From: an uncultured Bacteroidia bacterium
GTDB lineage: Bacteria > Bacteroidota > Bacteroidia > Bacteroidales > UBA932
NCBI GenBank assembly: GCA_902791945.1
Contig: CADAXR010000011.1
Span: 1-34,769 of the forward strand
Direction: 5' to 3'
DNA length: 34,769 nt
Of this stretch, positions 18,882-33,368 are shown one piece after another (the stretch's first letter is position 1; the number at the start of each line of letters is the position of its first letter). A program made the position numbers and the translations under genes. Under the pieces are notes generated by a model. It did not search any database. It saw only the letters and a program-made list of their open reading frames with translations, and was not told the origin of the DNA.

Positions 18882-20225
18882 CTAGATGACGCCCTTTTCG
18901 AGCATCGCGTGGGCGACTTTCATGAAGCCTGCGATGTTGGCGCCCTTGACGTAGTCGACGGAGCCGTCGGGCTGTGTGCCGTAGCGGACGCACTGCTCGT
19001 GGATGCTCTTCATTATGAAGTGGAGCTTGGCGTCGACCTCTTCGGCGGACCAGCTGATGTGGCTTGCGTTCTGGGTCATCTCGAGGCCGGAAGTCGCGAC
19101 GCCGCCTGCGTTGACGGCCTTTCCGGGAGCGAAGAGGATGCCGTTGTGCTGGAAGAAGTGGATGGCATCAGGCTGGCAGCCCATGTTGGAAACCTCGCAG
19201 CAGCACCAGCAGCCGTTCGCCTTGAGCTCCTCGGCGTCCTCGAGCGCGAGCTCGTTCTGGAACGCGCAGGGGAGAGCGATGTCGCAGGGGATGCTCCAGG
19301 CCTTCTTGCCGGGAGTGAAGATTGCTTTGCCGGGGAACTTTGTCGCGAGATCTTCAACCATATTGCGGTTGGAAGCCCTCATCACGAGCATGTATTCGTT
19401 CATCTCGGGGGTGAGGCCGTCGGGAATCTCGCAGACTCCGTCGGGGCCGGAGATGGCGACGACCTTGGCGCCGAGCTGGGCGGCCTTCTTGGCTGCGCCC
19501 CAGGCCACGTTGCCGAAACCGGAGATTGCGATCTTCTTGCCCTCGATGCTCTTGCCCGCCTTTGCGAGAAGGTGCTGGGTGAAGTAGAGGGCGCCGAAGC
19601 CGGTCGCCTCGGGACGGAGGATGGAGCCGCCCCAGGTGAGGCCCTTGCCGGTGAGAACACCGGTGTTGTACTCGCGGGCGAGTTTGCAGTACATGCCGTC
19701 GAGATAACCGATTTCGCGGCCGCCTACGCCGACATCGCCTGCAGGAATGTCCTGGTCGGGACCGATGCAGTTCCACAGCTCAAGCATGAAAGCCTGGCAG
19801 AAACGCATGATCTCTGCGTTGGATTTGCCGACAGGGTCGAAGTCCGAGCCGCCCTTTGCGCCGCCCATCGGAAGGGTCGTGAGGGCGTTTTTGAAAGTCT
19901 GCTCGAAGCCGAGGAACTTCAGCATTGAAGGGTTTACGGCCCTGTGGAAACGAAGACCGCCCTTGTAGGGACCGATGGCCGAGTTGAACTGGATGCGGTA
20001 GCCGGTGTTGGTCTGGATCTCGCCGCGGTCGTCCACCCAGGTTACCCTGAAGGAGAAGATACGGTCGGGCTCCACGAGCCTCTCCACGATTTTCGCCTCC
20101 TCGAATTCGGGGTGTTCGTTGTAAACGTCCTCGATGGACTCGAGAACTTCCCTGACAGCCTGCAGATATTCTTTCTCTGCGGGATACTTGGCCTCGAGAC
20201 GGGCCATGATGTCATTGGTTTTCAT
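18882..20225 (-). CDS. gdhA: NADP-type glutamate dehydrogenase
   Basis: A 447-residue hexameric glutamate dehydrogenase interconverting 2-oxoglutarate plus ammonia and glutamate. Visible signatures are GGLRFHRAVN, the catalytic-Lys region LPMGGAKGGSDFDP (about 120-133), AGDVGVGGREIGYL and the Rossmann GFGNVAWG (about 236-243). The length of about 447 is that of the 50-kDa bacterial GdhA class, usually NADP-linked and assimilatory. It is the last gene of the operon porin-korA-korB-gdhA, 33 nt after korB. That position couples 2-oxoglutarate made or used by KorAB with glutamate and ammonia assimilation. Cofactor choice is inferred from class, not from residues checked. Confidence 0.96.
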   Translation of the reverse strand: MKTNDIMARLEAKYPAEKEYLQAVREVLESIEDVYNEHPEFEEAKIVERLVEPDRIFSFRVTWVDDRGEIQTNTGYRIQFNSAIGPYKGGLRFHRAVNPSMLKFLGFEQTFKNALTTLPMGGAKGGSDFDPVGKSNAEIMRFCQAFMLELWNCIGPDQDIPAGDVGVGGREIGYLDGMYCKLAREYNTGVLTGKGLTWGGSILRPEATGFGALYFTQHLLAKAGKSIEGKKIAISGFGNVAWGAAKKAAQLGAKVVAISGPDGVCEIPDGLTPEMNEYMLVMRASNRNMVEDLATKFPGKAIFTPGKKAWSIPCDIALPCAFQNELALEDAEELKANGCWCCCEVSNMGCQPDAIHFFQHNGILFAPGKAVNAGGVATSGLEMTQNASHISWSAEEVDAKLHFIMKSIHEQCVRYGTQPDGSVDYVKGANIAGFMKVAHAMLEKGVI

Positions 20226-20258
20226 CTTGGTTATAGTGTTAGTAGTCAGTGTTTTGTC

Positions 20259-21266
20259 TTAAACATCCCAGGTCGCGCCGCTGTGGAGCAGCTCATCCAT
20301 GGAGCGTATCTTTGATTTGGCGGCCACGTCGCAGGCCTGGGTGTCGACCCTCTCGTCGTAGGTGCCGTCGCAGACGCGGCGGATGACGCCGAGTGCGACC
20401 GGGAATTCGGGCCAGCGCATGTCTGCGAGCTGCATCTGAAGGCCGAGATTGTCCGACTGGGAGTCGTGGACGAGGATGTCCTCCTCGCGGACCTCGGAGA
20501 CGAGCGCGGTCTTGAGTTTCCAGCCGTCGAGTACGAGGCACTTGTCGGAGTCCTTGCCGTAGATCATCTTCTGCCCGTCGCGGAGGACTATGGTCCGGTC
20601 CGCACGGGTTTCCCTGTCGGTCACGTCGGAGTGGATGCCGTTGTTGAATATCACGCAGTTGGTCAGGAACTCCATCACGGCTGCGCCCTTGTGGCGCGAG
20701 GCCTCGAGCATGATTTCCTCGCTGAGGGCGAGGTCCACGTCGAGGCTGCGGGCGAAGAACGTGCCCTTGGACCCGAGCACGAGGCTTCCGGGGTTGAAGG
20801 GGTTTTCGACCGTGCCGTAGGGCGAGGTCTTGGTTATGGCACCAAGTTTCGAGGTGGGGGAGTACTGGCCCTTCGTCATGCCGTAGATACGGTTGTTGAA
20901 GAGCATGATGTTGATGTCGACATTGCGCCTGATGGCGTGGATGAAGTGGTTTCCGCCGATGGCGAGCGCGTCGCCGTCGCCGCTGGCCTGCCAGACGCTG
21001 AGCTCGGGGTTGGCGACCTTGACGCCGGTAGCTACGGCCGTGGCGCGGCCGTGTATGCTGTGGAAACCGAATGTGTTCATATAATAAGGGAGACGGGAAG
21101 AGCATCCGATGCCGGACACCACCACTACCTTTTCCTTGTCAATCCCTTTCTCTTCACAGACCTTCGGAAGAACCCTCTGCAGGGCGGCGAGCACTGCGTA
21201 ATCGCCGCATCCGGGACACCAGCGCACTTCCTGGTCGCTCTTGAAATCTTTCTGCGAATACTTCAT
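20259..21266 (-). CDS. korB: 2-oxoglutarate:ferredoxin oxidoreductase, beta subunit
   Basis: A 335-residue thiamine-diphosphate-binding subunit of a 2-oxoacid:ferredoxin oxidoreductase. It shows the start RWCPGCGDYAVLAALQ with a CxxC pair, a conserved GIGCSSRLPYYMNTFGFHSIHGRA, and the TPP/Mg motif SGDGDALAIGGNHFIHA followed by NINIMLFNN-type residues. With KorA it converts 2-oxoglutarate and CoA to succinyl-CoA, CO2 and reduced ferredoxin, or runs in reverse as in the reductive branch. It is three nt downstream of korA. No separate ferredoxin-like delta subunit is encoded nearby, as in other two-subunit enzymes. Pyruvate or branched-chain 2-oxoacids are alternative substrates, but the gdhA neighbour favours 2-oxoglutarate. 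Confidence 0.93.
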   Translation of the reverse strand: MKYSQKDFKSDQEVRWCPGCGDYAVLAALQRVLPKVCEEKGIDKEKVVVVSGIGCSSRLPYYMNTFGFHSIHGRATAVATGVKVANPELSVWQASGDGDALAIGGNHFIHAIRRNVDINIMLFNNRIYGMTKGQYSPTSKLGAITKTSPYGTVENPFNPGSLVLGSKGTFFARSLDVDLALSEEIMLEASRHKGAAVMEFLTNCVIFNNGIHSDVTDRETRADRTIVLRDGQKMIYGKDSDKCLVLDGWKLKTALVSEVREEDILVHDSQSDNLGLQMQLADMRWPEFPVALGVIRRVCDGTYDERVDTQACDVAAKSKIRSMDELLHSGATWDV

Positions 21267-21269
21267 ACC

Positions 21270-23105
21270 CTACAAAGCGTTTTTGATGGAAGACAGAATC
21301 TCGTGGACCAGGAAAGTCTGACCCTGGACCTTGTTGCACTGGAGATACTCGTGGGCGGGATGTGTGCTCCTGAGCCAGGAGGCGAACTGCCCGGAGTTGA
21401 GCTCACAGACGAGTATGCGGTCGAAGCCGGAGAGAACCTCCTCCGTGTTTGCGGGAAGGGGATTGATGAAATCGAAATGGGCGAAGCTCACCTCGAGCCC
21501 TTCCTCACGGGCCTTCTCGACTGCGCTGAGGATGTGGCCGAAAGTGCCGCCCCAGCCGACGACAAGGAGCCTGCCCTTCGCAGGGCCGTCCACCTTGACC
21601 GGAGGAATCATATCGGCGACTTTAGCCACCTTGCCGGCCCTTTCGCTGACCATGAGCTCGTGGTTGTCGGGGTCTGTCGAGAGAGCGCCGGAGTGCTGCT
21701 TCTCGAGGCCGCCGACCCTGTGCTCAAGGCCCGGGGTGCCGGGGACAGCCCAGCGGCGGGCGAGAGTCTCCGCATCCCTCTCGAAGGGGCGGAAAGGCTC
21801 GTCGGAAGCCTCTGCGATGCGAGGCTTGATCTCCGGATACGATGCCATTGACGGAACCCTCCACGGCTCGGAACCGTTGCCGAGGAAGCCTTCGGAGAGA
21901 AGGAGCACCGGGGTCATCCTCTCGAGCGCAATCTTCGCGACCATGAAGGCGGCGTCGAAGCAGTGGGCAGGAGAATGGGCGGCGATGACCGGGATGGGGC
22001 ACTCGCCGTTACGGCCGTAGAGGGCCTCGTTGAGGTCCGTCTGCTCGGTCTTGGTCGGCATGCCGGTGCAGGGACCGGCGCGCTGGACGTCCACGACGAC
22101 AAGCGGCAGCTCTGTCATCACGGCGAGTCCGAGGGCCTCCGACTTAAGCGAAAGGCCGGGACCGGAGGTCGTCGTGACGGCAAGGCGGCCGGCGAAGGCC
22201 GCGCCGATTGCCGTGCAGATGCCTGCGATTTCATCCTCGGTCTGCATGGTCTTGACGCCGAGACCCTTGTGGAGCGCGAGCTCCTCGAGGATCGCGGTCG
22301 CGGGGGTTATGGGATACGAGCCGCAGAAAAGCTTCAGTCCGCTTTTCTCGGAGGCGGCCATAAGGCCCCAGGCGAGAGCCTGGTTGCCCGTTATGTTCCT
22401 GTAGGTGCCCTTCTCAAGGGGCGCAGGGGCCACCTTGTAGATGTTCGGCACCGCCTGGATGGCGGCGGCGTAGTTGAAGCCGTCGGTCACCACCTTGCGG
22501 TTGGGCTCCACCATCTCGGGGTGCTTCTTCGAGAATTTCGAGGCGATGTAGCCGTAGACATAGTCGAGGGGGCGGCTGTAGATATAGCACGCCATCCCGA
22601 GGGTGAACATGTTCTTGCACTTGAGGACCGACTGCTGGTCGAGCCCGGTTCCGGCGAGGCTCTCTTTCGTGAGCTCCGTGATCGGGGCCACTATGATGTT
22701 CCTGTCGGAGACGCCGGCTTCGGCGAACGGGTCGTCCGTCGAGAAGCCCGCTTTCCGGAGGGAAGCCTCGTCGAAGGCGTCGGAATTGACGAGCACGAGG
22801 CCCGTGCGGCTCACCCACTTGGCGTTTGCCTTGAGGGCCGCCGGGTTCATCGCCACGAGCATGTCGCAGTAGTCGCCGGGGGTGTTGACCTTGCGGCTGC
22901 CGATGTGGACCTGGAAACCGGAAACCCCGGAGACCGTGCCCTTCGGGGCCCTGATCTCGGCGGGGTAGTCGGGGAATGTTGAAAGTGAGTTGCCGAAGAC
23001 TGCGGAGGTGTTTGCAAACAGGGTTCCTGTGAGCTGCATTCCGTCGCCGGAGTCTCCGGCGAAACGTATCACGACATCTTCGGCGTCGATGACTTTATGC
23101 TGCAT
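21270..23105 (-). CDS. korA: 2-oxoglutarate:ferredoxin oxidoreductase, alpha subunit (gamma-alpha fusion)
   Basis: A 611-residue KorA with the gamma domain fused at the N-terminus (about 1-190: VVIRFAGDSGDGMQLTGTLF, APKGTVSGVSGFQVHIGS, LVAMNPAALKAN). The alpha domain follows (about 220-610), with GNQALAWGLMAA, SYPITPATAILEEL, MQTEDEIAG and TTTSGPGLSLKSEALGLAV, hallmarks of 2-oxoacid:acceptor oxidoreductase alpha subunits. The VVDVQRAGPCTGMPTKTEQ segment is also typical. Length matches the two-subunit Kor class. It starts nine nt after the porin stop and ends three nt before korB, so transcription is shared. Confidence 0.94.
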   Translation of the reverse strand: MQHKVIDAEDVVIRFAGDSGDGMQLTGTLFANTSAVFGNSLSTFPDYPAEIRAPKGTVSGVSGFQVHIGSRKVNTPGDYCDMLVAMNPAALKANAKWVSRTGLVLVNSDAFDEASLRKAGFSTDDPFAEAGVSDRNIIVAPITELTKESLAGTGLDQQSVLKCKNMFTLGMACYIYSRPLDYVYGYIASKFSKKHPEMVEPNRKVVTDGFNYAAAIQAVPNIYKVAPAPLEKGTYRNITGNQALAWGLMAASEKSGLKLFCGSYPITPATAILEELALHKGLGVKTMQTEDEIAGICTAIGAAFAGRLAVTTTSGPGLSLKSEALGLAVMTELPLVVVDVQRAGPCTGMPTKTEQTDLNEALYGRNGECPIPVIAAHSPAHCFDAAFMVAKIALERMTPVLLLSEGFLGNGSEPWRVPSMASYPEIKPRIAEASDEPFRPFERDAETLARRWAVPGTPGLEHRVGGLEKQHSGALSTDPDNHELMVSERAGKVAKVADMIPPVKVDGPAKGRLLVVGWGGTFGHILSAVEKAREEGLEVSFAHFDFINPLPANTEEVLSGFDRILVCELNSGQFASWLRSTHPAHEYLQCNKVQGQTFLVHEILSSIKNAL

Positions 23106-23114
23106 GATATGTGG

Positions 23115-24458
23115 TTAGAAATTGAACTTTACCATGGTGAGGATGCGGTGGTTGCCGATCCAGTGGAGGTTCTCGGTGGGGAGGACCCTGTTTCCGGTGA
23201 TAGTGCCGTAGCGGACCATCGTGTAGTTGTACTCGAGGGCGAACTGGAGCTTGCCGAGATTATAGATGAAGCCCGGAGTAATACGGACAATCTGGTCGAT
23301 GTTGGCGAAGCCGTTGGCGCTGAAATAGACCTTGTCGGCGAGGACGTCCTTGAATGTGCCGAGGTTCTTGTGGTAGCCGACCATAAGGTGGCCCTGGGCT
23401 TTCTTTCCTACCATGAAGGAAAGGAAGTTGACCGAGGCGTTGACGGGGGTGTATTCATACGAAATACCGTCGTCCTTGAGGGCGGTCGCGGCGTAGCCGT
23501 TGTTGAGCTGCATGTACTCGCCGCTCTGGGCGAAGACGCTCTTGGCCTTGATCTGGAAGATGCCTTTGGTGTACTGGAGATAGATGAACGGGCTGAAGGA
23601 GGTCATCCACTCGTTGTATTTCTTGCCGTTGAGGGGGTCGGCAGGATCCTCGGTGTTGTTGTAGAAGCCGTACTGGGGCCTGAGGTTCATGATGGAGACA
23701 CCGGCCCTGCCGAGGAATCCGCCGCCTTTGACGCTGATGCCGGCGTAGAACTCCGGAAGGGAGTGGCGAAGGTACTTGTTGGTCACGCCCTGGGGGCCGT
23801 TGGACTTGTACTGCATGTGGGAGATCGCGGCGGCGGTGAGGATAACGTGCTCACCGAGGCCGGCGTTGAACTGGACCTGGGCGCTGCGGTTGAACGGGGA
23901 GAAGGGAGCGCCGGTCTCGAGGTTGATGCCGTGGGCCATGTCGGCGGCCATAGGGTGCCATGTCTGGCCGACGAGGAGGCTGAGGTTGCTCTTGCCGGAG
24001 CGGCCGAGGCCGTCCCAGCCGAGCTTTACGTAGGCCTGGCGCATACGGAAGGTCGCTGCGGCGCCTTCCTTTGCGAGGAAGTAGAAGTCGCCCTCGATCT
24101 TGCCTTCAATGCTGGTCCCGCCTACTTTGTAGTCCTTTATGTCAAGGCCGAGGCGGGTCGTGATGGCCTGGAAGTTCCACGAAGTGACTGCGTTGATGTC
24201 CTGCCCGTTTACCTCTTTGCTGTCGAGGGGAAGGAAGAAGAACATGTCCTCGGTGAGGGATTTGGTCGCCCTCGTGTCGACGAAAATGAAGCTGCGGATG
24301 AAACCGTAGGGCTTGAAGTGCATCTCGAGGTGATCCTTGACGGCTTCCTTGCGGGCGGCTTTCCTGGCGGCTTTGTCGGCGGCAGTCTCCTGGGCGTAAA
24401 GCCCGGTTGCGCAGAGCAGCGACGCGCCAAGTGCGATGATTGAGAGTATTCTTTTCAT
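23115..24458 (-). CDS. Outer-membrane porin, DcaP-like
   Basis: A 447-residue outer-membrane protein with a signal peptide (to about residue 22, GLYAQ) and then an Ala/Lys/Arg-rich helical stretch (AADKAARKAARKEAVKDH). That pattern resembles the N-terminal coiled coil of DcaP-family trimeric porins. The remainder is a barrel of alternating aromatic strands (YGFIRSFIFVDTR, NFQAITTRLGLDI, LLVGQTWHP) ending in LTMVKFNF with a terminal Phe, the usual Bam-recognised signal. DcaP porins favour dicarboxylates. As first gene of the operon with korA, korB and gdhA and divergent from a DASS dicarboxylate transporter, it probably admits the same substrate through the outer membrane. The specific family is likely, not certain. 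Confidence 0.75.
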   Translation of the reverse strand: MKRILSIIALGASLLCATGLYAQETAADKAARKAARKEAVKDHLEMHFKPYGFIRSFIFVDTRATKSLTEDMFFFLPLDSKEVNGQDINAVTSWNFQAITTRLGLDIKDYKVGGTSIEGKIEGDFYFLAKEGAAATFRMRQAYVKLGWDGLGRSGKSNLSLLVGQTWHPMAADMAHGINLETGAPFSPFNRSAQVQFNAGLGEHVILTAAAISHMQYKSNGPQGVTNKYLRHSLPEFYAGISVKGGGFLGRAGVSIMNLRPQYGFYNNTEDPADPLNGKKYNEWMTSFSPFIYLQYTKGIFQIKAKSVFAQSGEYMQLNNGYAATALKDDGISYEYTPVNASVNFLSFMVGKKAQGHLMVGYHKNLGTFKDVLADKVYFSANGFANIDQIVRITPGFIYNLGKLQFALEYNYTMVRYGTITGNRVLPTENLHWIGNHRILTMVKFNF

Positions 24459-24486
24459 ATTATAAGCGTTCTTTGTTCTGAGGCTA

Positions 24487-24494
24487 CAAATTTA
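24487..24494 (-). promoter_or_regulatory. Candidate -7 box for the porin-korAB-gdhA operon
   Basis: On the minus strand it reads TAAATTTG, 28 nt before the porin ATG. A -33 box is not clear; an AT-rich stretch of about 40 nt separates it from the divergent promoter. Confidence 0.5.
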
Positions 24495-24528
24495 GCCTAT
24501 TTTATTCAATTTATTAAATAAATTTAAG

Positions 24529-24536
24529 TAAATTTG
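24529..24536 (+). promoter_or_regulatory. Candidate -7 box for the DASS fusion gene
   Basis: TAAATTTG lies 37 nt before the ATG at 24574. It is the same octamer as the divergent porin box, so the two units might share control, although I see no clear operator. Confidence 0.5.
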
Positions 24537-24573
24537 CGGCCACTTAAATGACAAATTTAAACCTTAGTTTATA

Positions 24574-27500
24574 ATGTCTTCTGAAAAAGGCAAATTCAAT
24601 CTGAAGTATTGTGTCTTCCTGCCTGTAGTGCTTCTGGTCACAATCTTCCTTTGGGCCGTCCCGACATCTTTCTTCGGCATCGAGGCCCTTACTCCCGTGC
24701 AGCAGAGGGTCATCGCCCTGTTCGTTTTCGCCGCCCTGATGTGGATATTCGAAATCATCCCCAACTGGACGACTTCGCTGCTGGTCATCGTGATCTCCCT
24801 CCTGACCGTATCCAACAAGGGTCTCGGCTTCTTCTGCGACCCGAAGTTCGGCCAGCTCGTGAGCTACAAGGACCTGATGGCCTCCTTCGCGGACCCCGTC
24901 GTGATGCTTTTCCTCGGCGGATTCGTCCTCGCCATAATGGCCGAGAAATTCGGCCTTGACGTGACCCTGGCCCGTATCCTCCTGAAGCCCTTCGGCACGA
25001 AGCCTAGGATGGTCCTTCTCGGATTCCTCATCGTGATCTCCATCTTCTCGATGTTCATGTCCAACACGGCGACCGCCGCGATGATGCTCGCATTCCTCGC
25101 ACCGGTGCTCGCCGTCCTTCCGAAGGACGACAAGGGCCGCATAGCCCTTGCCCTGTCGATTCCCGTCGCGGCGAACCTCGGCGGCATCGGTACGCCTATC
25201 GGCACCCCTCCGAACGCGACCGCCGTCAAGTTCCTCGCTGAGGCCAACTACGACGTGACCTTCGGCGAGTGGTCGATGAGGATGATCCCGTTCGTGATCA
25301 TCATGATCTTCATCGCCTGGATACTCCTTCAGGTCATATTCCCCTTCAAGAGCGACAAGATAGTCCTTGAGATCCCCGAGAACAAGCGCAAGAGCGACTG
25401 GAAGACCTGGGTGGTCTGGGTTACTTTCATCGGCACGATCCTCCTCTGGGCCACTGAGCAGTGGACCAAGATCAACTCCAATGTCGTCGCCCTCATCCCT
25501 CTCGGCGTGTTTACCGCGACAGGCCTCTTCGGCAAGGAGGACATCAAGCAGATCAACTGGAGCGTGCTCTGGTTGGTGGCGGGAGGTTTCGCCCTCGGCA
25601 CCTGCCTCCAGGGGACCGGCCTTGCCAAGGTCCTCATCAACGCGATTCCTTTCGGAACGATGTCGGTGGTGCTCGTGCTCGTTATTGCGGGCCTCGTGTG
25701 CTACTTTCTCTCCAACTTCATATCCAACAGCGCGACCGCGGCCCTTCTCATACCTATCCTGATTGTCGTGGCCGGCGGTATGGCTGACCCCGAGGCGGCC
25801 AACAACGCCCAGTTCGTGGCCCTCGGCGGCACCAAGGCGATGATCTCCTTCATCGCGATCTGCGCCTCCATCGCCATGCTGTTCCCGATCTCCACCCCTC
25901 CGAACGCCATCGCATCTTCGACAGGTCTCGTTGAGACTAAGGATATGGCGAAGGTCGGCATCATCGTCGGTGTCGTCGGCTTCGTGCTCGGCTACTTCTG
26001 GCTCACCAAGCTCTTCCCGTTCGAGAACAAGCATGAAGGCGGCGTCCAGACGTCCGTGATGGAGAAGAAAGTCGGTCAGTATGCCGTCGTGGAGATAGCG
26101 GAGCCCGACCTTTCCGGCATCAGCGAGAACGGCAAGGAGGTTCTCAACCTCTACCGTTTCGCCGCGGATGAGGCCGACAATATCTTCTGGAAGCAGAACG
26201 GCATCGACAAGGCCGCGATCGATTCGCTCTCCGACGAGGCTTCAAGGACATACGCCGGCATCAACTACGGCCCCTGGGACCGCATAGACGGCAAGGCATT
26301 CCTGCCCGGCTATCCCGAGCACAGGCCTCTCGGCGGCGGATTCTATCCCGCCGACATGACCGCCGAAGAGTTCGAGTCCTTCTCCGACCCTTCGAAGACG
26401 AGTCCGTACACGCTCGTGACCCGCGGCGCTGACGGTACCCTCTCCACCGTGTGGTACCACGACGCCTACAAGGAGAACATAGACAAGATCTGCAGCTACC
26501 TCGGCGCCGCCGCGGACATCACCATCAAGCCCAGCGTACGCAAGTACCTGCTCGGCAAGATCGACGCTCTCCGCAGTGACGACTACTACAGCAGCGACCT
26601 TTCCTGGCTTGAGATGTCCGACAGCAAGATGGACCTCGTGATTGGGCCTACAGAGACTTCCGACGACGCCCTTTATGGCTGCAAGGCCTCCTACGGCGCT
26701 TTCGTGATGCTCAAGGACCAGCGCAAGACCGACGAACTCTCGAAGTTCGCGGCCATGCTGCCGGAGCTCCAGAAGAGCCTCCCGGGCGATGCTGAGTACC
26801 ACGCCTTCAAGCCCGGCGCCGGCTCGAACATCTTCGCCTGCGACGCCATGTACTACGCCGGAAGCTACAACGCCGGCTTCAAGGTCATCGCCGTCAACCT
26901 GCCTCACGACCCTAAGGTTCAGGCTGAGAAGGGCACCCGCACCATCCTATTCTCCAACATCATCAAGGAGAAGTTCAACACGACCGTGTTCCCTCTCGGT
27001 TCAGTCCTTCTGACCCACGAGGAGCAGCCTCACCTCGACGCCGACGCTTTCTACTGGAACATCGTCTTCCGCGAGGTCGCCCACGGACTCGGTGTCACGG
27101 AGACAGTCAATGGTAACGGTTCCGTTAAGGACGCCCTCGGCAACGAGGCCGAGACCTGGGAGAAAGCCAAGGACAACGTCCTCGGCGCCTATCTCGCCTG
27201 CGAGCTCATCGACCGCGATGAGATCTCCGCCCTCATCACCCGTGAGGACGCTCTCACGACCTTCGTCGCCAGCGTCATCCGTTCGGCCCGCTTCGGTGCC
27301 GAAGAGGCCACCGGCCGTGCCAACGTGATGATCTACAACTACCTCGTGGAGCAGAACGCCATCGCCCGCGGCGAGGACGGCAAATACAAGATCGACTATG
27401 ACGCCACCTGGCAGAGCATAAGCGATCTCGGCGCCCTCATCCTCAAGACCCAGGCGACCGGCGACTATGAGTTCGCCAGCACCTTCGCCGCCTCGCACAC

Positions 27501-27588
27501 CGAGATCGGCAAGGGTCTCAAGGCGGACTTCAAGGCCCTCGCCCTCGAGAACATCCCCGTCGACATCCGCTTCACCTGGAAGCGATAG
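24574..27588 (+). CDS. DASS (SLC13) transporter fused to an M49-like pseudopeptidase domain
   Basis: A 1004-residue fusion. Residues 1-485 are a divalent anion:sodium symporter with about 11 membrane helices. They have both DASS repeats: MSNTATA (Asn164) with TPPNAT at 211-216, and SNSATA (Asn385) with TPPNAI at 441-446. Substrates of the family are succinate, fumarate, malate, 2-oxoglutarate or citrate. After a linker, residues about 520-1004 match the short dipeptidyl peptidase III (M49)-like family: INYGPWDRIDGK, GGGFYPADMTAEEF, DLVIGPTE, LPELQKSLP, FREVAHGLGVTETVNG and WEKAKDNVLGAY. The zinc motif HExxHG reads R833-E-V-A-H837-G, and the expected metal Glu of the E-E-A-K-A-D motif aligns with Lys864. 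Both changes argue against peptidase activity. With usual DASS topology the domain is periplasmic. It is divergent from the porin-korAB-gdhA operon. Confidence 0.88.
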   Translation: MSSEKGKFNLKYCVFLPVVLLVTIFLWAVPTSFFGIEALTPVQQRVIALFVFAALMWIFEIIPNWTTSLLVIVISLLTVSNKGLGFFCDPKFGQLVSYKDLMASFADPVVMLFLGGFVLAIMAEKFGLDVTLARILLKPFGTKPRMVLLGFLIVISIFSMFMSNTATAAMMLAFLAPVLAVLPKDDKGRIALALSIPVAANLGGIGTPIGTPPNATAVKFLAEANYDVTFGEWSMRMIPFVIIMIFIAWILLQVIFPFKSDKIVLEIPENKRKSDWKTWVVWVTFIGTILLWATEQWTKINSNVVALIPLGVFTATGLFGKEDIKQINWSVLWLVAGGFALGTCLQGTGLAKVLINAIPFGTMSVVLVLVIAGLVCYFLSNFISNSATAALLIPILIVVAGGMADPEAANNAQFVALGGTKAMISFIAICASIAMLFPISTPPNAIASSTGLVETKDMAKVGIIVGVVGFVLGYFWLTKLFPFENKHEGGVQTSVMEKKVGQYAVVEIAEPDLSGISENGKEVLNLYRFAADEADNIFWKQNGIDKAAIDSLSDEASRTYAGINYGPWDRIDGKAFLPGYPEHRPLGGGFYPADMTAEEFESFSDPSKTSPYTLVTRGADGTLSTVWYHDAYKENIDKICSYLGAAADITIKPSVRKYLLGKIDALRSDDYYSSDLSWLEMSDSKMDLVIGPTETSDDALYGCKASYGAFVMLKDQRKTDELSKFAAMLPELQKSLPGDAEYHAFKPGAGSNIFACDAMYYAGSYNAGFKVIAVNLPHDPKVQAEKGTRTILFSNIIKEKFNTTVFPLGSVLLTHEEQPHLDADAFYWNIVFREVAHGLGVTETVNGNGSVKDALGNEAETWEKAKDNVLGAYLACELIDRDEISALITREDALTTFVASVIRSARFGAEEATGRANVMIYNYLVEQNAIARGEDGKYKIDYDATWQSISDLGALILKTQATGDYEFASTFAASHTEIGKGLKADFKALALENIPVDIRFTWKR

Positions 27589-27661: not shown

Positions 27662-28213
27662 TTACTTTCGGCCGGAGGCGGGGCCTCGGCCACCATTGCC
27701 GGGGCCGTGCATGCCGCCGGGGGCGCCGCCCTTGCGGGCCATCTGCTCGTGCTTCATGCCTGCGCCGGTCTTCTTCTCCTGCTCGTAGATCTTCTGGATC
27801 TGGCGGGGGTTGAGGAAAGCCTTGAATTTGGAGTAGTAGCTTTCCCTGACGTCGATCAGCTCGCGGCCTTCAGCGAATTTGTCGAGGATCATCTTCTCGA
27901 TTTCGGCGTCGGTCTTGCGTTCGGGTGCGGCGCCGGGTTCAACGCTCTGCTTCACGGGATGATACTTTTTCTTCACGGCAAAAAGATCGTTCTTGTAGGC
28001 CTTGAAGACGGGGGAGAACTTTGCGGCGGTGGCGTCGTCGAGAGCAAGCTCTTCGACAAGCCTTGCGCACTGGGCGTCAACGATCTGCTCCCTTGAGGGG
28101 CGGACACGTTCGGCGCTTCCATTCTCTGAAGGGGCGCCCTTGCGGGGCTGCGCACTGAGCGCGATTCCTGCCGAAACACCGAGGACGGCGAGGAGGGTAA
28201 TCATCTTTTTCAT
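27662..28213 (-). CDS. Spy/CpxP-like periplasmic protein
   Basis: A 183-residue protein with a signal peptide (MKKMITLLAVLGVSAGIALSAQ) and a mostly helical, charged body. It includes a helix with ELALDDATAAKFSPVFKAYK and one with ESYYSKFKAFLNPRQIQKIYE, the latter resembling the LTxxQ-type motif of Spy/CpxP-like proteins. A Gly/Pro/Arg-rich tail (GGAPGGMHGPGNGG...) follows. Proteins of this kind in Bacteroidetes commonly sit with an ECF sigma factor and a small membrane protein, as here (minus strand, 31 nt after the latter). A role in sensing or buffering envelope stress is inferred from family and context only. Confidence 0.68.
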   Translation of the reverse strand: MKKMITLLAVLGVSAGIALSAQPRKGAPSENGSAERVRPSREQIVDAQCARLVEELALDDATAAKFSPVFKAYKNDLFAVKKKYHPVKQSVEPGAAPERKTDAEIEKMILDKFAEGRELIDVRESYYSKFKAFLNPRQIQKIYEQEKKTGAGMKHEQMARKGGAPGGMHGPGNGGRGPASGRK

Positions 28214-28244
28214 AATTCTTTCTTTTTTGGAGGGTTATACACTG

Positions 28245-28559
28245 CTATTCATCCATCAAATCGAGGAATACGTCGTTGTCTGAAAAATCGACCCAGGAGT
28301 CGAGCTCTTCGTCGGAGAGGAACTGCTCATAGTCGGCCAGGATGTCCGAAACGAGGGTCTCCTGTGGTCTGGAACGGAAGGTGAAAAATGCCACCGACGC
28401 GACCAGGACGACTGCCGCGGCCGCTGAAATCCAGCGGAACGCGAGTACCCTTTTCTGCCTCGCCGGGATGGCGGAGAGCTTCACGTGCATGGCATCGAAG
28501 TAGCCTTCCGGGACGGTGTAGGGCATTTTTTTGCCGATGTTTTCAAATTCCTTTTCCAT
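28245..28559 (-). CDS. Small membrane protein, probable anti-sigma factor
   Basis: A 104-residue protein with one membrane helix (about 43-62, WISAAAAVVLVASVAFFTF). A cytoplasmic N-terminal part contains GKKMPYTVPEGYFDAM, a motif common in Bacteroidetes proteins encoded after ECF sigma factors. The C-terminal part is acidic (LSDEELDSWVDFSDNDVFLD). It starts four nt after the sigma factor stop and is probably translated with it. No zinc-binding anti-sigma motif is present. Restraint of the sigma factor at the membrane is inferred from the gene pair. Confidence 0.65.
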   Translation of the reverse strand: MEKEFENIGKKMPYTVPEGYFDAMHVKLSAIPARQKRVLAFRWISAAAAVVLVASVAFFTFRSRPQETLVSDILADYEQFLSDEELDSWVDFSDNDVFLDLMDE

Positions 28560-28563
28560 GGCT

Positions 28564-29076
28564 TTATGCTATAATTGCGTTCTTGATCTTTTCCTTTGCG
28601 TAGTGGTAGGCGACCTTGAGGGTCGCTACCGAACTGCCTGTCACTTCCGCGATTTCCTCGTAGCTGAGGTCGTCGTAGTAGCGGAGAGTGAATACGGTGC
28701 GCTGCTGGGGGCTCAGCGAAAGCAGGGCTTTCTGGAAGCGGAGGGCCGCCCCGTCGGAAAGGTCCACCCCGGGCGAGCTCTCGAGCTGCTCCGCGAGAAA
28801 GGCGTTTTCTTCAGTGAGGGCCTGCTCCTTCCTTCTGGAAAGGAAGCGGATGCACTCGTTGGTCGCTATCCTGTAGACCCAGCTGCGGAGCGCGGCCTTT
28901 TCGCGGAGCGAGGGGAGCCCTTTATATATATTGATGAACGTTTCCTGCAGGACGTCGGAGGCGTCGTCGTGGGAGACGACCATCCTCCTGATGTGCCAGT
29001 AGAGGGGCTGCTCGTAGTCGCGTATTACCTCTTCGAAGGTGACGGCGGGCGTCCGTTTATGCAGAAAAATGTCCAT
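28564..29076 (-). CDS. ECF-type RNA polymerase sigma factor
   Basis: A 170-residue sigma-70 family protein of the ECF group. Region 2 is at about 18-80, with DASDVLQETFINIYKGL and RSWVYRIATNECIRFL. Region 4 is at about 115-168, with LSPQQRTVFTLRYYDDLSYE and the recognition helix VATLKVAYHYAKEKIK. Length is typical. It is the first gene of a three-gene set with a membrane protein and a Spy-like periplasmic protein, the usual arrangement for envelope-responsive sigma factors. Target promoters are not identifiable from this window. Confidence 0.93.
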   Translation of the reverse strand: MDIFLHKRTPAVTFEEVIRDYEQPLYWHIRRMVVSHDDASDVLQETFINIYKGLPSLREKAALRSWVYRIATNECIRFLSRRKEQALTEENAFLAEQLESSPGVDLSDGAALRFQKALLSLSPQQRTVFTLRYYDDLSYEEIAEVTGSSVATLKVAYHYAKEKIKNAIIA

Positions 29077-29134
29077 TCCGTAAAAACACTCTGCAAATAA
29101 GAAACCGTCCGGAAGGAAAAGTTAATGAGAAAAG

Positions 29135-30175
29135 TTAAAATTCTTCTTTCATCGACGAGACATAGGTCCTCCATTTCTCGATGAGGGCGGTCATGTCGGC
29201 GGGAACCGGGGCGGCGAAGGACATCCGTTTGCCGGTAGAAGGATGTGTGAAGCCGAGCGTGCGGGCGTGGAGCGCCTGACGCGGGCAGAGCGTGAAGCAG
29301 TTGGAGATGAACTGGCGGTATTTGGCGTAGATGGTGCCGGAGCGGATTTCGCTGCCGCCGTAGCGGGCGTCGTTGAAGAGTGGATGCCCGATGGAACTCA
29401 TGTGGACCCTGATCTGGTGGGTCCTGCCCGTCTCGAGGCGGCACTCCACGACCGTGATGAATCCGAAGCGCTCCAGCACGCGGTAATGCGTCACGGCGTG
29501 CTTGCCTTTCTCCGGGTCGTCGACGTTGCGGAAGCGCAGGCGGTCGTTGGGGTCGCGGCCGATGTAGCTCTCTACAGTGCCTTCATCCTCTTTTATATTG
29601 CCCCAGACGACGGCCGTGTAGAGCCTTTCTGTCGTGTGGTCGAAAAACTGTTTGGCCAGGGACATCTGGGCCTCGTCCGTCTTGGCGACGACGAGGAGCC
29701 CGGAAGTGTCCTTGTCTATACGGTGGACGAGGATGCCCATCCTCTCGTCGGAGCCTTTGCCTAGGCCGAGGTGGAAGGCGAGGGCGTTGACGAGGGTCCC
29801 GGAGAAATTGCCGTGGCCGGGATGGACCACCATCCCGGCGGGCTTGTTGACGACAAGGAGGGCGTCGTCTTCATATGTTATGTCGAGGGGAATGTCCTCG
29901 GGGAGAATCTCAACGCCGCGCCTCTGGTAGGGCATTACGAAGCGGATGATGTCTCCGGGGCGGACGATGAGGCTCGCCTTGGCGGGGACGTCGTTGACGA
30001 GGACGAAGCCCGCCTTGATGGCGAGCTGCACCCTGTGGCGCGAAGTGTCTTCCTGGTGGGTCGCGATGTAGCGGTCTATCCTGTCCGGCTCCTGACCCTT
30101 GTCCACGACAAGGCGGAAATGCTCGAACATCTCCTGCTGCTCCTCTTCCGGAAGGATCTCGCCGGGAGGGATCAT
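29135..30175 (-). CDS. RluA-family 23S rRNA pseudouridine synthase
   Basis: A 346-residue pseudouridine synthase that isomerises uridines in RNA. An N-terminal S4 RNA-binding domain is seen at about 33-95 (RIDRYIATHQEDTSRHRVQL, then LVNDVPAKASLIVRPGD). The catalytic domain has LLVVNKPAGMVVHPG, the catalytic Asp in VHRIDKDTSGLLVVAK, and ETGRTHQIRVHMSSIGHPL. The N-terminal 30 residues form an acidic extension seen in many Bacteroidetes members. RluD (23S U1911, U1915, U1917) is the likeliest subtype given the S4 domain, but RluC is possible. Its ATG overlaps the stop of the PASTA gene (ATGA at 30172-30175), suggesting coupled translation. Confidence 0.93.
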   Translation of the reverse strand: MIPPGEILPEEEQQEMFEHFRLVVDKGQEPDRIDRYIATHQEDTSRHRVQLAIKAGFVLVNDVPAKASLIVRPGDIIRFVMPYQRRGVEILPEDIPLDITYEDDALLVVNKPAGMVVHPGHGNFSGTLVNALAFHLGLGKGSDERMGILVHRIDKDTSGLLVVAKTDEAQMSLAKQFFDHTTERLYTAVVWGNIKEDEGTVESYIGRDPNDRLRFRNVDDPEKGKHAVTHYRVLERFGFITVVECRLETGRTHQIRVHMSSIGHPLFNDARYGGSEIRSGTIYAKYRQFISNCFTLCPRQALHARTLGFTHPSTGKRMSFAAPVPADMTALIEKWRTYVSSMKEEF

Positions 30176-30960
30176 TTGGTCGGAACCTTTGAGAGGTCGT
30201 TGGTGAGCCAGATGGCGACGGGGGTGCCCATCGTGCGCGAGGCGCGCGGAGGACCGTCCTGCTTGTAGACGACGGCGTCAAGCGAGTCGGCGTAGGTCCT
30301 TATGCCTTCGTCGAAGCGCACGCGGCCGACATTGAGATAGCTGTCGTGGATGGCGTCCATCGCGCTGATGTACTTCATTCCGGAAAGGTAGGGGATCGTA
30401 GTCCTGCTGTCAGAGGAGTTGAGGCCGACTGTGAGGTCTATCTCTGAGCCGGCGATGACCTTTTTGCCGGGAGCGATGACCCTGCCGCCGCATTTCTGGG
30501 CGAGGACGTTGTTGGTCGCCATGTCGGAGACGTACTCGAGACGTCCGAGCGAAAGACCGTGGTTGACGATTTCGGCCTTGGCCTGGACGAGGGAATAGCC
30601 GACAAGGTTCGGCATTGTAGTCGTCCTGGGAACGATGGAGTTGATCGTGAGGAAGACCAGGCGGCCTTTCTTGACCTTGGCGCCGGCTTTGGGGCTCTGG
30701 CGGAAGACGACGCCGGCGCCGAGCCTCCTTACGAAGACCGAGTCGGCGACCTTTATCGCGACTCCGCCCTTAGATGCGGCGGCTTCCGCCTCGGAGGGAG
30801 TCATGTTGATAAAGTCGGGGACCTCGACGGTCTTGCCGTGGCGGGTCGCTATGTTGAGGAAGATGGAGGCCGTCACAAGGAGCACTGTCAGGAACAGCAC
30901 GGCATAGAGGACGTTACGGACTATCCAGTTGGACAATATTTTCTTCCAGTCGATATTCAT
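30172..30960 (-). CDS. Membrane-anchored PASTA-domain protein
   Basis: A 262-residue protein with one N-terminal membrane helix (about 17-38) and a periplasmic part made of three PASTA-like repeats. These are about 44-108 (VEVPDFINMTPSEAEAAASK), 113-180 (TTMPNLVGYSLVQAKAEIVN) and 185-255 (TTIPYLSGMKYISAMDAIHD). PASTA domains bind peptidoglycan fragments or beta-lactams in kinases and PBPs; here there is no kinase or transpeptidase domain. I chose ATG at 30960 because it gives a clean cytoplasmic start (MNIDWKK) and lies behind a good promoter; the longer frame to 31041 crosses that promoter. It is followed by the pseudouridine synthase with a four-nt overlap. Confidence 0.85.
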   Translation of the reverse strand: MNIDWKKILSNWIVRNVLYAVLFLTVLLVTASIFLNIATRHGKTVEVPDFINMTPSEAEAAASKGGVAIKVADSVFVRRLGAGVVFRQSPKAGAKVKKGRLVFLTINSIVPRTTTMPNLVGYSLVQAKAEIVNHGLSLGRLEYVSDMATNNVLAQKCGGRVIAPGKKVIAGSEIDLTVGLNSSDSRTTIPYLSGMKYISAMDAIHDSYLNVGRVRFDEGIRTYADSLDAVVYKQDGPPRASRTMGTPVAIWLTNDLSKVPTK

Positions 30961-30989
30961 CTGATAGGTGTTTGGCTGTTGATTACCTG

Positions 30990-31022
30990 CAAAGATAATC
31001 AATTCGGCGTGAATATTGCAAA
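30990..31022 (-). promoter_or_regulatory. Promoter of the PASTA-pseudouridine synthase operon
   Basis: On the minus strand TTTG (plus 31019-31022) is followed after 21 nt by TATCTTTG (plus 30990-30997), the same -7 octamer as rpsU. It lies 29 nt before the ATG at 30960. Confidence 0.65.
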
Positions 31023-31057
31023 GAAGGGCCCCGGAAATCAAAACTGACAGAAATATT

Positions 31058-31732
31058 ATGAGAAAACTTCTGATTCTTTTCGCCGCGGCGCTCCCTCTTT
31101 CGCTCGCCGCTCAAAATCTTCCCTCCGTGGCTTCCGGAAGCCTCGACGGAGTCTCTGAAGTCAATCGCATAAGTGTGAAATTCGCCTGGGGAGGCGCTAC
31201 CGTCGCCGGCATGAGCGAGGAGGCCTACAGCCTCACCGACAAGGCCTGGGAAGACGGCAAGGCCGAGGCCGAGCGGCGTTTCATCGTGGAGCTCAACACT
31301 TCGCTCCGCCGCGCCGCCATCGAAGCCGCCCCTTTCGAGAACACTAAATACACCCTCCTCGTCTCGGTCGTAGGCGTCTCCAAGACCGGCGACGTGACAG
31401 CTCTCGCACAGGTCCTTGACGAGTCGAACGCCGAGGTCGCCGTGATTGAAGGCATCTACGGCAAAGGTGGCAAGGTCGGAGGGCTTTCGAACCTCGTCGG
31501 CGACGGTATGGAGAGCGCCGCCCGCCAGACGGGCCGCTGCTTCCTCCGCGCCTTCGGCATCATCTACACCCCTTCCGAGCAGGAGACCGAATCCATCAAG
31601 CAGCTCCAGGTAGAGATTGACTCCCTTGAAAAAGGCGTCCGCGACGCCACCGGCGCCCTCTACCAGAGCGCCAAGCGCGCCACCCTCGAGCAGTACAAGC
31701 GCTTCCTGGAAGCCCTGCCGTTCGTGAAGTAA
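31058..31732 (+). CDS. Secreted protein of unknown function
   Basis: A 224-residue protein with a signal peptide (MRKLLILFAAALPLSLAAQ). The body reads as a mixed alpha/beta domain: VNRISVKFAWGGATVAGMSE, KAEAERRFIVELNTSLRRAA, YTLLVSVVGVSKTGDVTALAQ and a Gly-rich loop IYGKGGKVGGLSNLVGDGME. A C-terminal coiled-coil-like helix (TESIKQLQVEIDSLEKGVRD) follows. I do not recognise the family; the central part suggests an envelope protein with a curved sheet, but this is only an impression. I chose ATG at 31058 because the signal peptide starts there; the frame upstream to 31016 is unlikely. It is divergent from the PASTA gene and ends at a bidirectional terminator. Confidence 0.7.
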   Translation: MRKLLILFAAALPLSLAAQNLPSVASGSLDGVSEVNRISVKFAWGGATVAGMSEEAYSLTDKAWEDGKAEAERRFIVELNTSLRRAAIEAAPFENTKYTLLVSVVGVSKTGDVTALAQVLDESNAEVAVIEGIYGKGGKVGGLSNLVGDGMESAARQTGRCFLRAFGIIYTPSEQETESIKQLQVEIDSLEKGVRDATGALYQSAKRATLEQYKRFLEALPFVK

Positions 31733-31749
31733 AAACCGACACAAGACAG

Positions 31750-31788
31750 AAAAAAGAGACTGACTCAAATAGAGCCAGTCTCTTTTTT
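31750..31788. terminator. Bidirectional terminator between convergent genes
   Basis: AAAAAAGAGACTG-a-CTC pairs with GAG-c-CAGTCTCTTTTTT around loop AAATA, with A and T runs outside. It serves the secreted-protein gene on plus and the membrane-protein pair on minus. Confidence 0.8.
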
Positions 31789-31803
31789 TGAAGTGCGTGG
31801 TCT

Positions 31804-32580
31804 TTAGAACCTTATGGCTAAGCCGAGGCCGTTGCGGCCGGAGACGACGTTGAAGGACATCGCGTTGCGCTGGTTGTAGCTGTCCGCAGCCCAGTTGAGG
31901 CGGGCGTTGCCGATGCAGAAGAGGGGAGCACCGACGGTCATCGCGGTCACACCGACGCTGAGGAAGACGATGCCGCTGTAGTAGAGGGCGGCTGACCAGG
32001 AGTTATAATAGTAGTTGTCGCCGGACCAATCCCACATAGTCGTTGCGCCTACCGCCGTGAACACAATACCTACGCCGGTAAGGGCGCCACCGGTGATGAG
32101 GAGGCTCTTACCTGAGCTCCTCTGGCGGAGCGCACCGTTGACGGTCTCGAACTCGTCGGCGTTGAAATAGTTGCGGTACTCGCCTTCATAGATCTGGCTC
32201 CCTCCAACCTCGAAGTCGCCGCCCGTGTGCTCCATGTGGCCTGTCACGCGCGGGGTCGCGGCCTGGGGGTTATACGAGGCCTGACGGTCCGCGGACTGGA
32301 AGGCCTGAGGGACATTCTGCTGCACGGGAGCGGGGGCTGTGAACACCTGCTCGGTGCCGTTGGCAAAACGGATCTTCTGGACGTTGGAGGTCGCAATCCT
32401 GTAGTTGGGACCTTCCTGGTTGTCGTAGGTTTTGTAGACGATCTCGGCATCGCTGATTTCGAGCACGACTGCGGAGATGATCTGGCTGTCGCGGGTCAGG
32501 ATGATGTCCTGGGCGGAAGCGTTGGACGCGCAGAACAGCATCGCTGTCGCTGCGGCAAGGATTGCAAATATCTTTTTCAT
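31804..32580 (-). CDS. Putative membrane protein, paralogue 2 of a tandem pair
   Basis: A 258-residue protein with a signal peptide (ending NASAQ). An N-terminal beta domain (about 24-80: DIILTRDSQIISAVVLEISD ... KIRFANGTEQVF) is a type common in Bacteroidetes secreted proteins. A Gln/Pro-rich linker follows, then a C-terminal part with two hydrophobic stretches (SLLITGGALTGVGIVFTAVG; LYYSGIVFLSVGVTAMTVGA). The C-terminal end is NVVSGRNGLGLAIRF with a terminal Phe, which suggests insertion as or association with an outer-membrane barrel. It is closely similar in length and order to the gene at 32604-33368 and follows it after 23 nt. Function unknown. Confidence 0.78.
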   Translation of the reverse strand: MKKIFAILAAATAMLFCASNASAQDIILTRDSQIISAVVLEISDAEIVYKTYDNQEGPNYRIATSNVQKIRFANGTEQVFTAPAPVQQNVPQAFQSADRQASYNPQAATPRVTGHMEHTGGDFEVGGSQIYEGEYRNYFNADEFETVNGALRQRSSGKSLLITGGALTGVGIVFTAVGATTMWDWSGDNYYYNSWSAALYYSGIVFLSVGVTAMTVGAPLFCIGNARLNWAADSYNQRNAMSFNVVSGRNGLGLAIRF

Positions 32581-32603
32581 ATTGCTGAAGGGGTTAATAA
32601 TTT

Positions 32604-33368
32604 CTAGAACTTAAGGGCAAGGCCTAAGCCGTTGCGGCCGGCGACGACATTGAAGGTCATCGCGTTGCGTTGGTTGTAGTTGTCGGCGACCCAGTTGAGG
32701 CGGGAGTTGCCGACGCAGTAGAGAGGGGAGCCGATTGTCATAAGGGTTATACCGGTGCCCATTAGTGTGAATCCGGTCATTCCGAATGCCCAGGCCATGT
32801 AGTCGTAGTCACCCTCCATACAGAATATCCACCAGGGGATGGTGAAGAGGATACCGATTCCGGTCGTGACGCCACCGGCGATGAGGAGGCCTTTACCGGC
32901 GTTTCTCTGGCGCACGGCGCCGTTGATGGTGCTGTATTCGTCGGCGTTGAAGTAGTTGTGGTACTCTCCTTCATAGATCCTTCTGCCGTTGAGCTCGAAA
33001 TCTCCGTGGCTGTGCTCCATATGGCCGACGATGGGGGTGTTTGCTACCGGGCCGGAATTATATGAGGGCTGCTGAGGCGCCGGGGCAGGCTCGGCGGGCG
33101 CTTCTGTCGTGATTGTCGCCATGGTGGCGAAGTTCTGCTCTATGCCGTTGGCAAAGCGGATTTTCTGTACCTGGGAAATGGCGATTTTGTAAGTCGGGCC
33201 GCTCTGGTTGTCGTAGGCCTTGTAAATTACTTCGTTGTGGTTGATCTCACTGATGATGGCGGTGATGATCTGGCTGTCGCGGGTCAGGATGATGTCCTGG
33301 GCGGAGGCATTGAACGCGGAAAGCAGCATTGCCGCCGCTGCGACGAGGATGACGATGAGTTTTTTCAT
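32604..33368 (-). CDS. Putative membrane protein, paralogue 1 of a tandem pair
   Basis: A 254-residue protein with a signal peptide (MKKLIVILVAAAAMLLSAFNASAQ), the same DIILTRDSQII N-terminal domain, a Pro-rich linker (EAPAEPAPAPQQPSYN), and a C-terminal half with two hydrophobic stretches. It ends NVVAGRNGLGLALKF. It is clearly paralogous to the next gene along its length, including YEGEYHNYFNADEYSTINGA versus YEGEYRNYFNADEFETVNGA. I chose ATG at 33368; the frame to 33413 only adds residues upstream of the signal peptide. It is first in a two-gene unit with a promoter at 33402-33409. Function unknown; outer-membrane location is inferred from the terminal Phe and the signal peptide. Confidence 0.78.
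   Translation of the reverse strand: MKKLIVILVAAAAMLLSAFNASAQDIILTRDSQIITAIISEINHNEVIYKAYDNQSGPTYKIAISQVQKIRFANGIEQNFATMATITTEAPAEPAPAPQQPSYNSGPVANTPIVGHMEHSHGDFELNGRRIYEGEYHNYFNADEYSTINGAVRQRNAGKGLLIAGGVTTGIGILFTIPWWIFCMEGDYDYMAWAFGMTGFTLMGTGITLMTIGSPLYCVGNSRLNWVADNYNQRNAMTFNVVAGRNGLGLALKF

Follow-up and report, generated by a model that had tools for sequence, protein, structure and literature searches.

A DASS transporter joined to a dismantled M49 peptidase domain in Bacteroidales, and its candidate role as a transport partner

What use could a membrane transporter have for a peptidase domain that has lost its active site? The question is raised by one gene in a 34,769-nucleotide (nt) contig of an uncultured Bacteroidia bacterium (CADAXR010000011.1, assembly GCA_902791945.1), the whole of which we call the window. 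A single ATG-started frame of 1004 codons with no internal stops (24574-27588, forward strand) encodes a DASS-type symporter followed by a domain resembling the M49 peptidase dipeptidyl peptidase III (DPP III). We find that the fusion is real, that the M49 part belongs to a clade without the catalytic set, and that most members of this clade are encoded beside transporters. The answer that we favour, with confidence evenly divided, is that a former peptidase now acts in the periplasm as an accessory or binding protein, with acidic amino acids or peptides as its ligands.

One frame encodes two complete domains

The first-pass annotation, made from the sequence alone, had described a complete DASS symporter and a full-length M49-like domain in one uninterrupted frame, and the frame, profile and structure matches all bear this out. 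Residues 44-472 match the full length of TIGR00785 (238.1 bits against a cut-off of 198.6, E = 1.5e-70), PF00939 is matched with E = 4e-37, and similarity to DASS proteins spans residues 18-483. A motif scan places SNT at residue 163, TPPNA at 211, SNS at 384 and TPPNA at 441, and both hairpin motifs and both TPPN-type motifs are thus present, as had been claimed. Residues 484-999 match the DPP III of Caldithrix abyssi (CaDPP III; PDB 6eom) with E = 8e-76 in phmmer, and the top phmmer and Foldseek matches of this part are DPP III; the Pfam M49 score of the fusion is 18.6 bits, under the cut-off of 21. In an AlphaFold2 model built on a 99-row alignment, the mean predicted local distance difference test score (pLDDT) is 86.4, with most of the M49 part above 90 and values below 50 at linker residues 485-493; the predicted template modelling score is 0.57, so the placement of the two parts relative to each other is not readable from the model. 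Foldseek matches the model to 6eom with a template modelling (TM) score of 0.90 and a root-mean-square deviation of 2.3, and to VcINDY with a TM score of 0.76 (both by target length). By homology and by structure match, the M49 fold therefore extends over the whole domain, and the linker at residues 485-500 presumably serves as a flexible periplasmic tether.

The fusion is confirmed by its recurrence. Among the matches listed, which were sorted by score with fusions first, a fused frame is found in at least 8 of 300 genomes of the window's genus, the window's own included (G000, G390, which is probably locus L033, G350, where the frame is cut by the contig end, G308, G084, G438, G216 and G236). 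An assembly join between two genes is very unlikely because fused frames recur in this way, and point errors at the zinc site are very unlikely because the Arg found there is present in every row of the inactive clade described below; we rejected both. We also rejected the idea of a decoration unique to the window's genome, since fusions recur and standalone pairs are commoner. As to a single origin of the fusion, the fused DASS rows do not form one clade in a quick tree, but one clade is not rejected (approximately unbiased test, p-AU 0.318); the fused M49 rows split over two clades.

The fused architecture proposed by the first-pass annotation is therefore real and recurrent, but it is only the visible tip, as most of the relatives sampled are adjacent separate genes. 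A scan of genome contigs with the full fusion as query, which favours loci with both domains, kept the best 80 of 165 loci, from uncultured Bacteroidales or Bacteroidia and in many cases from ruminants. The usual M49-bearing form in these 80 loci is a pair of genes with M49 just upstream of DASS, and one locus (L033) is fused. Three further DASS matches (G096:C29, G291:C35 and G421:C6) lie in frames open for 924-978 amino acids (aa), possibly with an upstream extension or perhaps as mere long open frames in G+C-rich DNA. At L150:37-1494, one stop splits a DASS frame into 345 and 140 aa, through an error or in a broken gene. Genome G000 also holds a 668-aa frame with distant M49 similarity (G000:C53:2929-3867, L002; 28% identity over 304 residues), probably a canonical long DPP III.

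The zinc site is lost in one clade

In CaDPP III, zinc is bound by His379, His383 and Glu412, and Glu240, Asn321 and Asn324 are the contacts for the substrate's amino end and its first carbonyl, according to the available part of its description (PMC5805324). In the fusion, the three ligand positions read Arg833, His837 and Lys864 (RHK), and the His-His-Glu set is broken; the codons reported for the two substitutions, CGC for Arg833 and AAA for Lys864, were confirmed. His460, which has a catalytic role in M49 peptidases, is also replaced (Table 1).

Comparison with homologues places these changes in a larger pattern. In a set of 166 unique M49 rows, from which rows covering fewer than about 430 query residues and duplicates over residues 20-400 were excluded, 50 carry His-His-Glu (HHE; hereafter active) and 116 do not (hereafter dead). 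In all 116 dead rows the first zinc His is replaced by Arg, and the ligand triads of these rows are RKK (52), RHE (45), RHK (7, the window's type), RQK (5), RHD (4), RQV (2) and RHR (1). The Lys that the first-pass annotation placed at the metal-binding Glu thus stands for the window but is not universal, as 45 of the 116 dead rows still have Glu there. Around the site, Asn321, Glu380 and Glu411 are kept in 116/116 dead rows and Glu240 in 110/116; His460, Tyr242 and Asp310 are gone from all 116, Glu254 is lost in 85, and Glu326 is lost in 100 (Glu kept in 16). A tree of 95 M49 rows with 6eom, computed without the three ligand columns and column 416, unites the Arg rows as one branch inside the active rows (Shimodaira-Hasegawa-like approximate likelihood ratio test 100, stem length 0.78). 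The amino-end pocket is thus partly kept and, in the RKK group, a fixed positive charge takes the place of the metal; this charge would be suited to binding a carboxylate. Three M49 genes (L073, L093 and L096) are cut to 506 aa, with residues gone just after the former zinc helix and a DASS gene still adjoining.

The M49 part is under purifying selection. For four fusion pairs, its ratio of nonsynonymous to synonymous substitution rates (dN/dS) is about 0.16, 0.10, 0.08 and 0.15, and that of the DASS part is lower still. A decaying passenger domain was rejected on these ratios and on the sharing of the substitutions by the whole clade. The earlier view of a selected module rather than a decaying one accordingly holds as far as sequence can tell, given the low dN/dS and the Arg common to all dead rows.

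Two lines of evidence back a periplasmic location for the M49 part, as the first-pass annotation had proposed from DASS topology. A lipoprotein-type signal, scored as a Cys in a relaxed lipobox pattern, is present in 100 of 101 standalone dead genes and in 47 of 50 active ones. An acidic stretch resembling the surface-export signal is present in 2 of the 100 signal-bearing dead genes. In addition, the C-terminus of VcINDY lies on the extracellular surface (PMC7553777, available part). Since the standalone relatives carry the signal and the VcINDY C-terminus faces out, the M49 part would be periplasmic.

Table 1. Features of the fused gene and of its neighbours in the window
Feature	Coordinates	Strand	Details and basis
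DASS symporter domain	24574..26025	+	Residues 1-484; TIGR00785, motif scan, Foldseek match to VcINDY (6okz)
Linker	26026..26073	+	Residues 485-500; pLDDT <50 at 485-493, end of DNA similarity to unfused L034-L036 at 26023-26026
Pseudo-M49 (DPP III-like) domain	26074..27585	+	Residues 501-1004; stop codon 27586-27588
Glu694	26653..26655	+	CaDPP III Glu240, ligand of substrate amino end, kept; alignment, role from PMC5805324 (available part)
Asn775	26896..26898	+	CaDPP III Asn321, contact of the substrate's amino end and of its first carbonyl; Asn in 166/166 rows
Arg833	27070..27072	+	Replaces first zinc His (His379); next residue Glu834 = Glu380, catalytic Glu, kept
His837	27082..27084	+	His383, second zinc His, kept in the window; Lys in RKK subtype
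Lys864	27163..27165	+	Replaces zinc Glu412; Glu863 = Glu411 kept
Asn868	27175..27177	+	Replaces Asp416; Asp in 50/50 active, Asn in 107/116 dead rows
Thr913	27310..27312	+	Replaces His460; His in 50/50 active, 0/116 dead rows
DcaP-like outer-membrane porin candidate	23115..24458	-	Divergent from fusion; PF19577 E 6e-4, below cut-off
2-oxoacid:ferredoxin oxidoreductase alpha subunit (KorA-like)	21270..23105	-	PF01855, PF01558; substrate putative
2-oxoacid:ferredoxin oxidoreductase beta subunit (KorB-like)	20259..21266	-	PF02775; substrate putative
Glutamate dehydrogenase	18882..20225	-	PF00208, PF02812

Most dead M49 genes are encoded beside transporters

The pairing of dead M49 genes with transporter genes is well supported. 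For loci seeded with M49, edge-cut frames were excluded and duplicates inside the set were counted as one. Of the 79 unique dead genes in these loci, 55 are either fused to a DASS gene or no more than 400 nt from one, and 16 have an AspT/YidE-type antiporter gene (PF06826) at that distance or less. Altogether, 71 of 79 dead M49 genes stand beside one or other transporter type as against 0 of 50 active ones, although for 7 of the 50 the shorter side is only 609-1250 nt and an adjacent gene could be missed in a few. The idea that all M49 genes sit by transporters was rejected, since none of the 50 active ones does. Fisher's test for DASS alone gives 1e-17, a value that overstates the association because related genomes are not independent.

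The choice of loci also bears on these counts. Loci L171-L210 were chosen by hand, mostly in list order with some skipped (L210 is not in the seeded set), and several of them (including L183, L187, L193, L197, L199, L204, L205 and L207-L209) show two M49 matches about 3 kb apart. Such spacing hints at a gene in between, and the choice therefore favours DASS-linked triplets. When only score-picked loci were counted, which are the best-scoring and favour close relatives of the window, 27 of 32 dead genes were transporter-linked (23 DASS, 4 AspT, with 5 beside neither), against 0 of 50 active.

Gene spacing fits the same partnership. With starts estimated, the stop-to-start gap is 6-172 nt for M49 followed by DASS (n = 61; at most 17 nt in 42), 6-42 nt for DASS followed by M49 (n = 13) and 2-12 nt for AspT type followed by M49 (n = 14), gaps such as co-transcribed genes would have. 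The RKK subtype is DASS-linked in 52/52 unique rows over all loci and in 35/35 within the M49-seeded loci. In nine loci (L183, L187, L193, L197, L204, L205, L207, L208 and L209), the transporter is of a second DASS type, with 52-55% identity to that of the window, and M49 genes adjoin it on both sides. The upstream gene is RKK and the downstream one RHE, so a single transporter may be served by two different dead M49 proteins.

The second partner is an antiporter with a dead-M49 gene, mostly RHE, 2-12 nt downstream (L206:929-4223, L175, L177, L179, L185, L186 and L188, and also L190, L195, L196, L199, L200, L212 and L213). The L206 protein matches PF06826 (2e-75) and scores above the cut-offs of NCBIfam PRK03818 ("putative transporter") and of the YidE/YbjL duplication domain; it falls below the cut-off of the aspartate-alanine antiporter model, so the AspT-type name does not give the cargo. 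In a search of the class (395 genomes), the AspT-linked dead M49 was matched at more than 50% identity only in the window's own genome, among the matches listed, and ten other listed genomes match at 41-43% identity, whichever their ligand residues. In a search of the order (393 genomes), the 30 best matches include RHE copies beside an AspT-type gene in two genomes from a different family (L212 and L213). One dead M49 gene (L178:3207-6424) adjoins, in place of a DASS or AspT-type gene, a frame that matches MatE weakly and below the cut-off.

The M49 module comes or goes cleanly, and the DASS gene persists without it. Window positions 18882-26023 and 27716-32553 align with locus L036 at 84% and 83%, and the M49 stretch between them is absent there; the L036 DASS frame is intact at 490 aa. 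In L034 and L035 the match ends at the same place as in L036, and the downstream block is inverted.

The first-pass annotation knew of no described transporter with this architecture, and our search of the open-access literature, beyond which most subscription papers and bioRxiv preprints lie, likewise turned up no publication that links M49 to a DASS or AspT-type transporter.

What the dead domain may do, and how it compares with known systems

The annotation's suggestion of a binding or regulatory role is supported by the sequence evidence, and can be narrowed to an accessory or substrate-binding role. In the mechanism that we propose, the M49 part would descend from a secreted DPP III-like lipoprotein peptidase whose zinc site was lost once, the dead protein having come to work in the periplasm with transporters of acidic substrates. 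Most of the genomes covered would make it as a separate lipoprotein beside the transporter; in the window it is joined to the transporter's C-terminus, and this link would do the work of the lipid anchor. The proposed ligand of the cleft is an amino acid or short peptide of acidic character. Its amino group would be held by Glu694 and Asn775, and Arg833 (in RKK proteins together with the Lys at the other former ligand positions) would hold a carboxylate where zinc held the carbonyl. We infer, finally, that the loaded domain would pass its ligand to the DASS elevator. Somewhat more tentatively, the dead clade may define a new binding-protein-dependent class of secondary transport, in which a peptidase rebuilt with Arg, Lys and Lys, and with its amino-group pocket partly kept, feeds acidic cargo to DASS and AspT-type transporters, sometimes as a fusion.

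The neighbouring genes suggest glutamate or 2-oxoglutarate as the DASS cargo. A glutamate dehydrogenase (GDH) family gene lies within 500 nt of the DASS unit, on either strand, in 54 of the 80 loci (of the 80, 5 M49-bearing and 3 M49-lacking loci show no GDH and have a short flank), and a DcaP-like porin family gene lies within 600 nt of DASS in 55 of 80; no solved relative of the porin candidate was found by sequence. However, M49 is missing from 24 of these 54 DASS loci with GDH and from 27 of the 55 with the porin. As both genes also flank M49-free loci, the glutamate hint belongs to DASS and not specifically to the M49 part, which weakens GDH as proof of the M49 ligand. Further along the window, at 31807-33368 on the reverse strand, neighbouring frames of 258 and 254 aa fall into one similarity group as a tandem pair.

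Several further observations weigh against the proposed mechanism. The known cargo of DASS proteins is di- and tricarboxylates, not amino acids, in the available part of PMC7553777. The DASS proteins of L034-L036 are 90-93% identical to the window's and intact without an adjoining M49, so the transporter can do without M49 there; 41 of the 80 genome-contig DASS loci show no M49 (7 of the 41 with less than 600 nt on one side), and 8 of 79 dead genes adjoin neither transporter. In the cleft, the last of the three amino-end ligands, Asn324, survives in just 2 of 116 dead rows, Glu254 is still present in 31 of 116, and the window itself is RHK rather than RKK; in the RHE rows (45/116), the remaining His and Glu might still hold a metal.

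We think that a binding-protein role is most likely and that an ancillary subunit without ligand hand-over comes next, an unlikely but serious alternative. In this case the dead ectodomain would stabilise, place or gate the transporter, in the manner of collectrin/ACE2 or of 4F2hc, the ancillary subunit of LAT1. The gene partnership and the fusion also fit such a subunit, the loss of the catalytic set agrees with it, and a general helper could explain why one dead clade stands beside two transporter families. However, the cleft has not just been given up: every dead row keeps Asn321, Glu380 and Glu411, and a 52-row subtype has the RKK triad in common, which suggests that something is bound there.

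Distinctly improbable, in our judgement, is a ligand-sensing regulator, which would bind a peptide or amino acid and switch the transporter on or off with no delivery of cargo. The persistence of the DASS gene without M49 in near relatives is what a regulator would lead one to expect, but lipoprotein copies encoded beside the transporter fit delivery just as well. A slimmer chance still attaches to an enzyme that works with changed chemistry or another metal and supplies the transporter with its substrate, for instance by trimming glutamyl peptides. Glu380 is kept in all dead rows and the RHE subtype (45 rows) retains both His383 and Glu412, as such an enzyme might require; against this, Arg stands at the first His position throughout the dead rows, none of the 116 retains His460 or Tyr242, and a cation would not be expected to bind at an Arg/Lys/Lys site. 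Almost no weight is left for an artefact, whether an assembly join or point errors, or for a passenger domain in decay. The window's genome is indeed a draft in 187 contigs and the tail is absent in L034-L036, but fused frames occur in other genomes, dN/dS is 0.08-0.16 and the substitutions are common to one clade.

The binding-protein reading can be set beside several known systems. The short bacterial M49 peptidases (CaDPP III, 6eom; Corallococcus DPP III, 5zum) share the whole fold with the M49 part of the fusion at 29-31% identity by Foldseek, and CaDPP III is given a predicted signal peptide in the available text; in the fusion two of the zinc ligands and His460 are replaced, and it appears to bear no sign of peptidase function. 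Members of DASS/SLC13 (VcINDY, LaINDY and NaCT) share the fold, the SNT/SNS and TPPNA motifs and an outside C-terminus, but no M49 or other periplasmic partner is described for them in the available portions of the sources. In plants, M49 is likewise joined to another domain, NUDIX; according to the available part of PMC5805324, however, that M49 is of the zinc-motif type and its partner is a hydrolase motif rather than a transporter. The ancillary subunits that serve amino-acid transporters in animals resemble the present case in pairing an enzyme-related ectodomain protein with a transporter, collectrin and ACE2 being ancillary proteins for the membrane trafficking of B0AT1 (PMC10491607, available part); their folds and transporters are unrelated, and the proteins here are bacterial and either fused or equipped with a lipoprotein signal. 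If our reading is right, a peptidase active site has been rebuilt into a transport partner, in parallel to these ACE2/collectrin-type subunits.

The closest parallel is TAXI-GltS, as far as the available part of its description goes (PMC12344293). In Bordetella pertussis, BP0403 is a lipoprotein partner encoded beside the elevator-type secondary transporter GltS, and in other genomes (Lachnospiraceae) the two form one-piece fusions, while the transporter also occurs alone. The TAXI domain has shown glutamate binding, whereas the dead M49 is known from sequence; here, moreover, the transporter is of DASS or AspT type and comes first in the fusion. As in TRAP, TTT and TAXI-GltS, the partner is encoded with or fused to the transporter and is predicted to be secreted or lipid-anchored, but its family, M49, is not one of the binding-protein families known from those systems. 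According to the same source, TRAP and TTT had been the sole secondary transporters known to rely on a soluble binding protein until TAXI-GltS was described, the elevator mechanism is possibly what permits such reliance, and additional classes could put this to the test. DASS, to which the human SLC13 transporters belong, is an elevator family with solved structures, and a natural single chain of DASS and a candidate binding domain, with near-matching loci that have it (the window) and lack it (L036), makes the elevator question directly testable.

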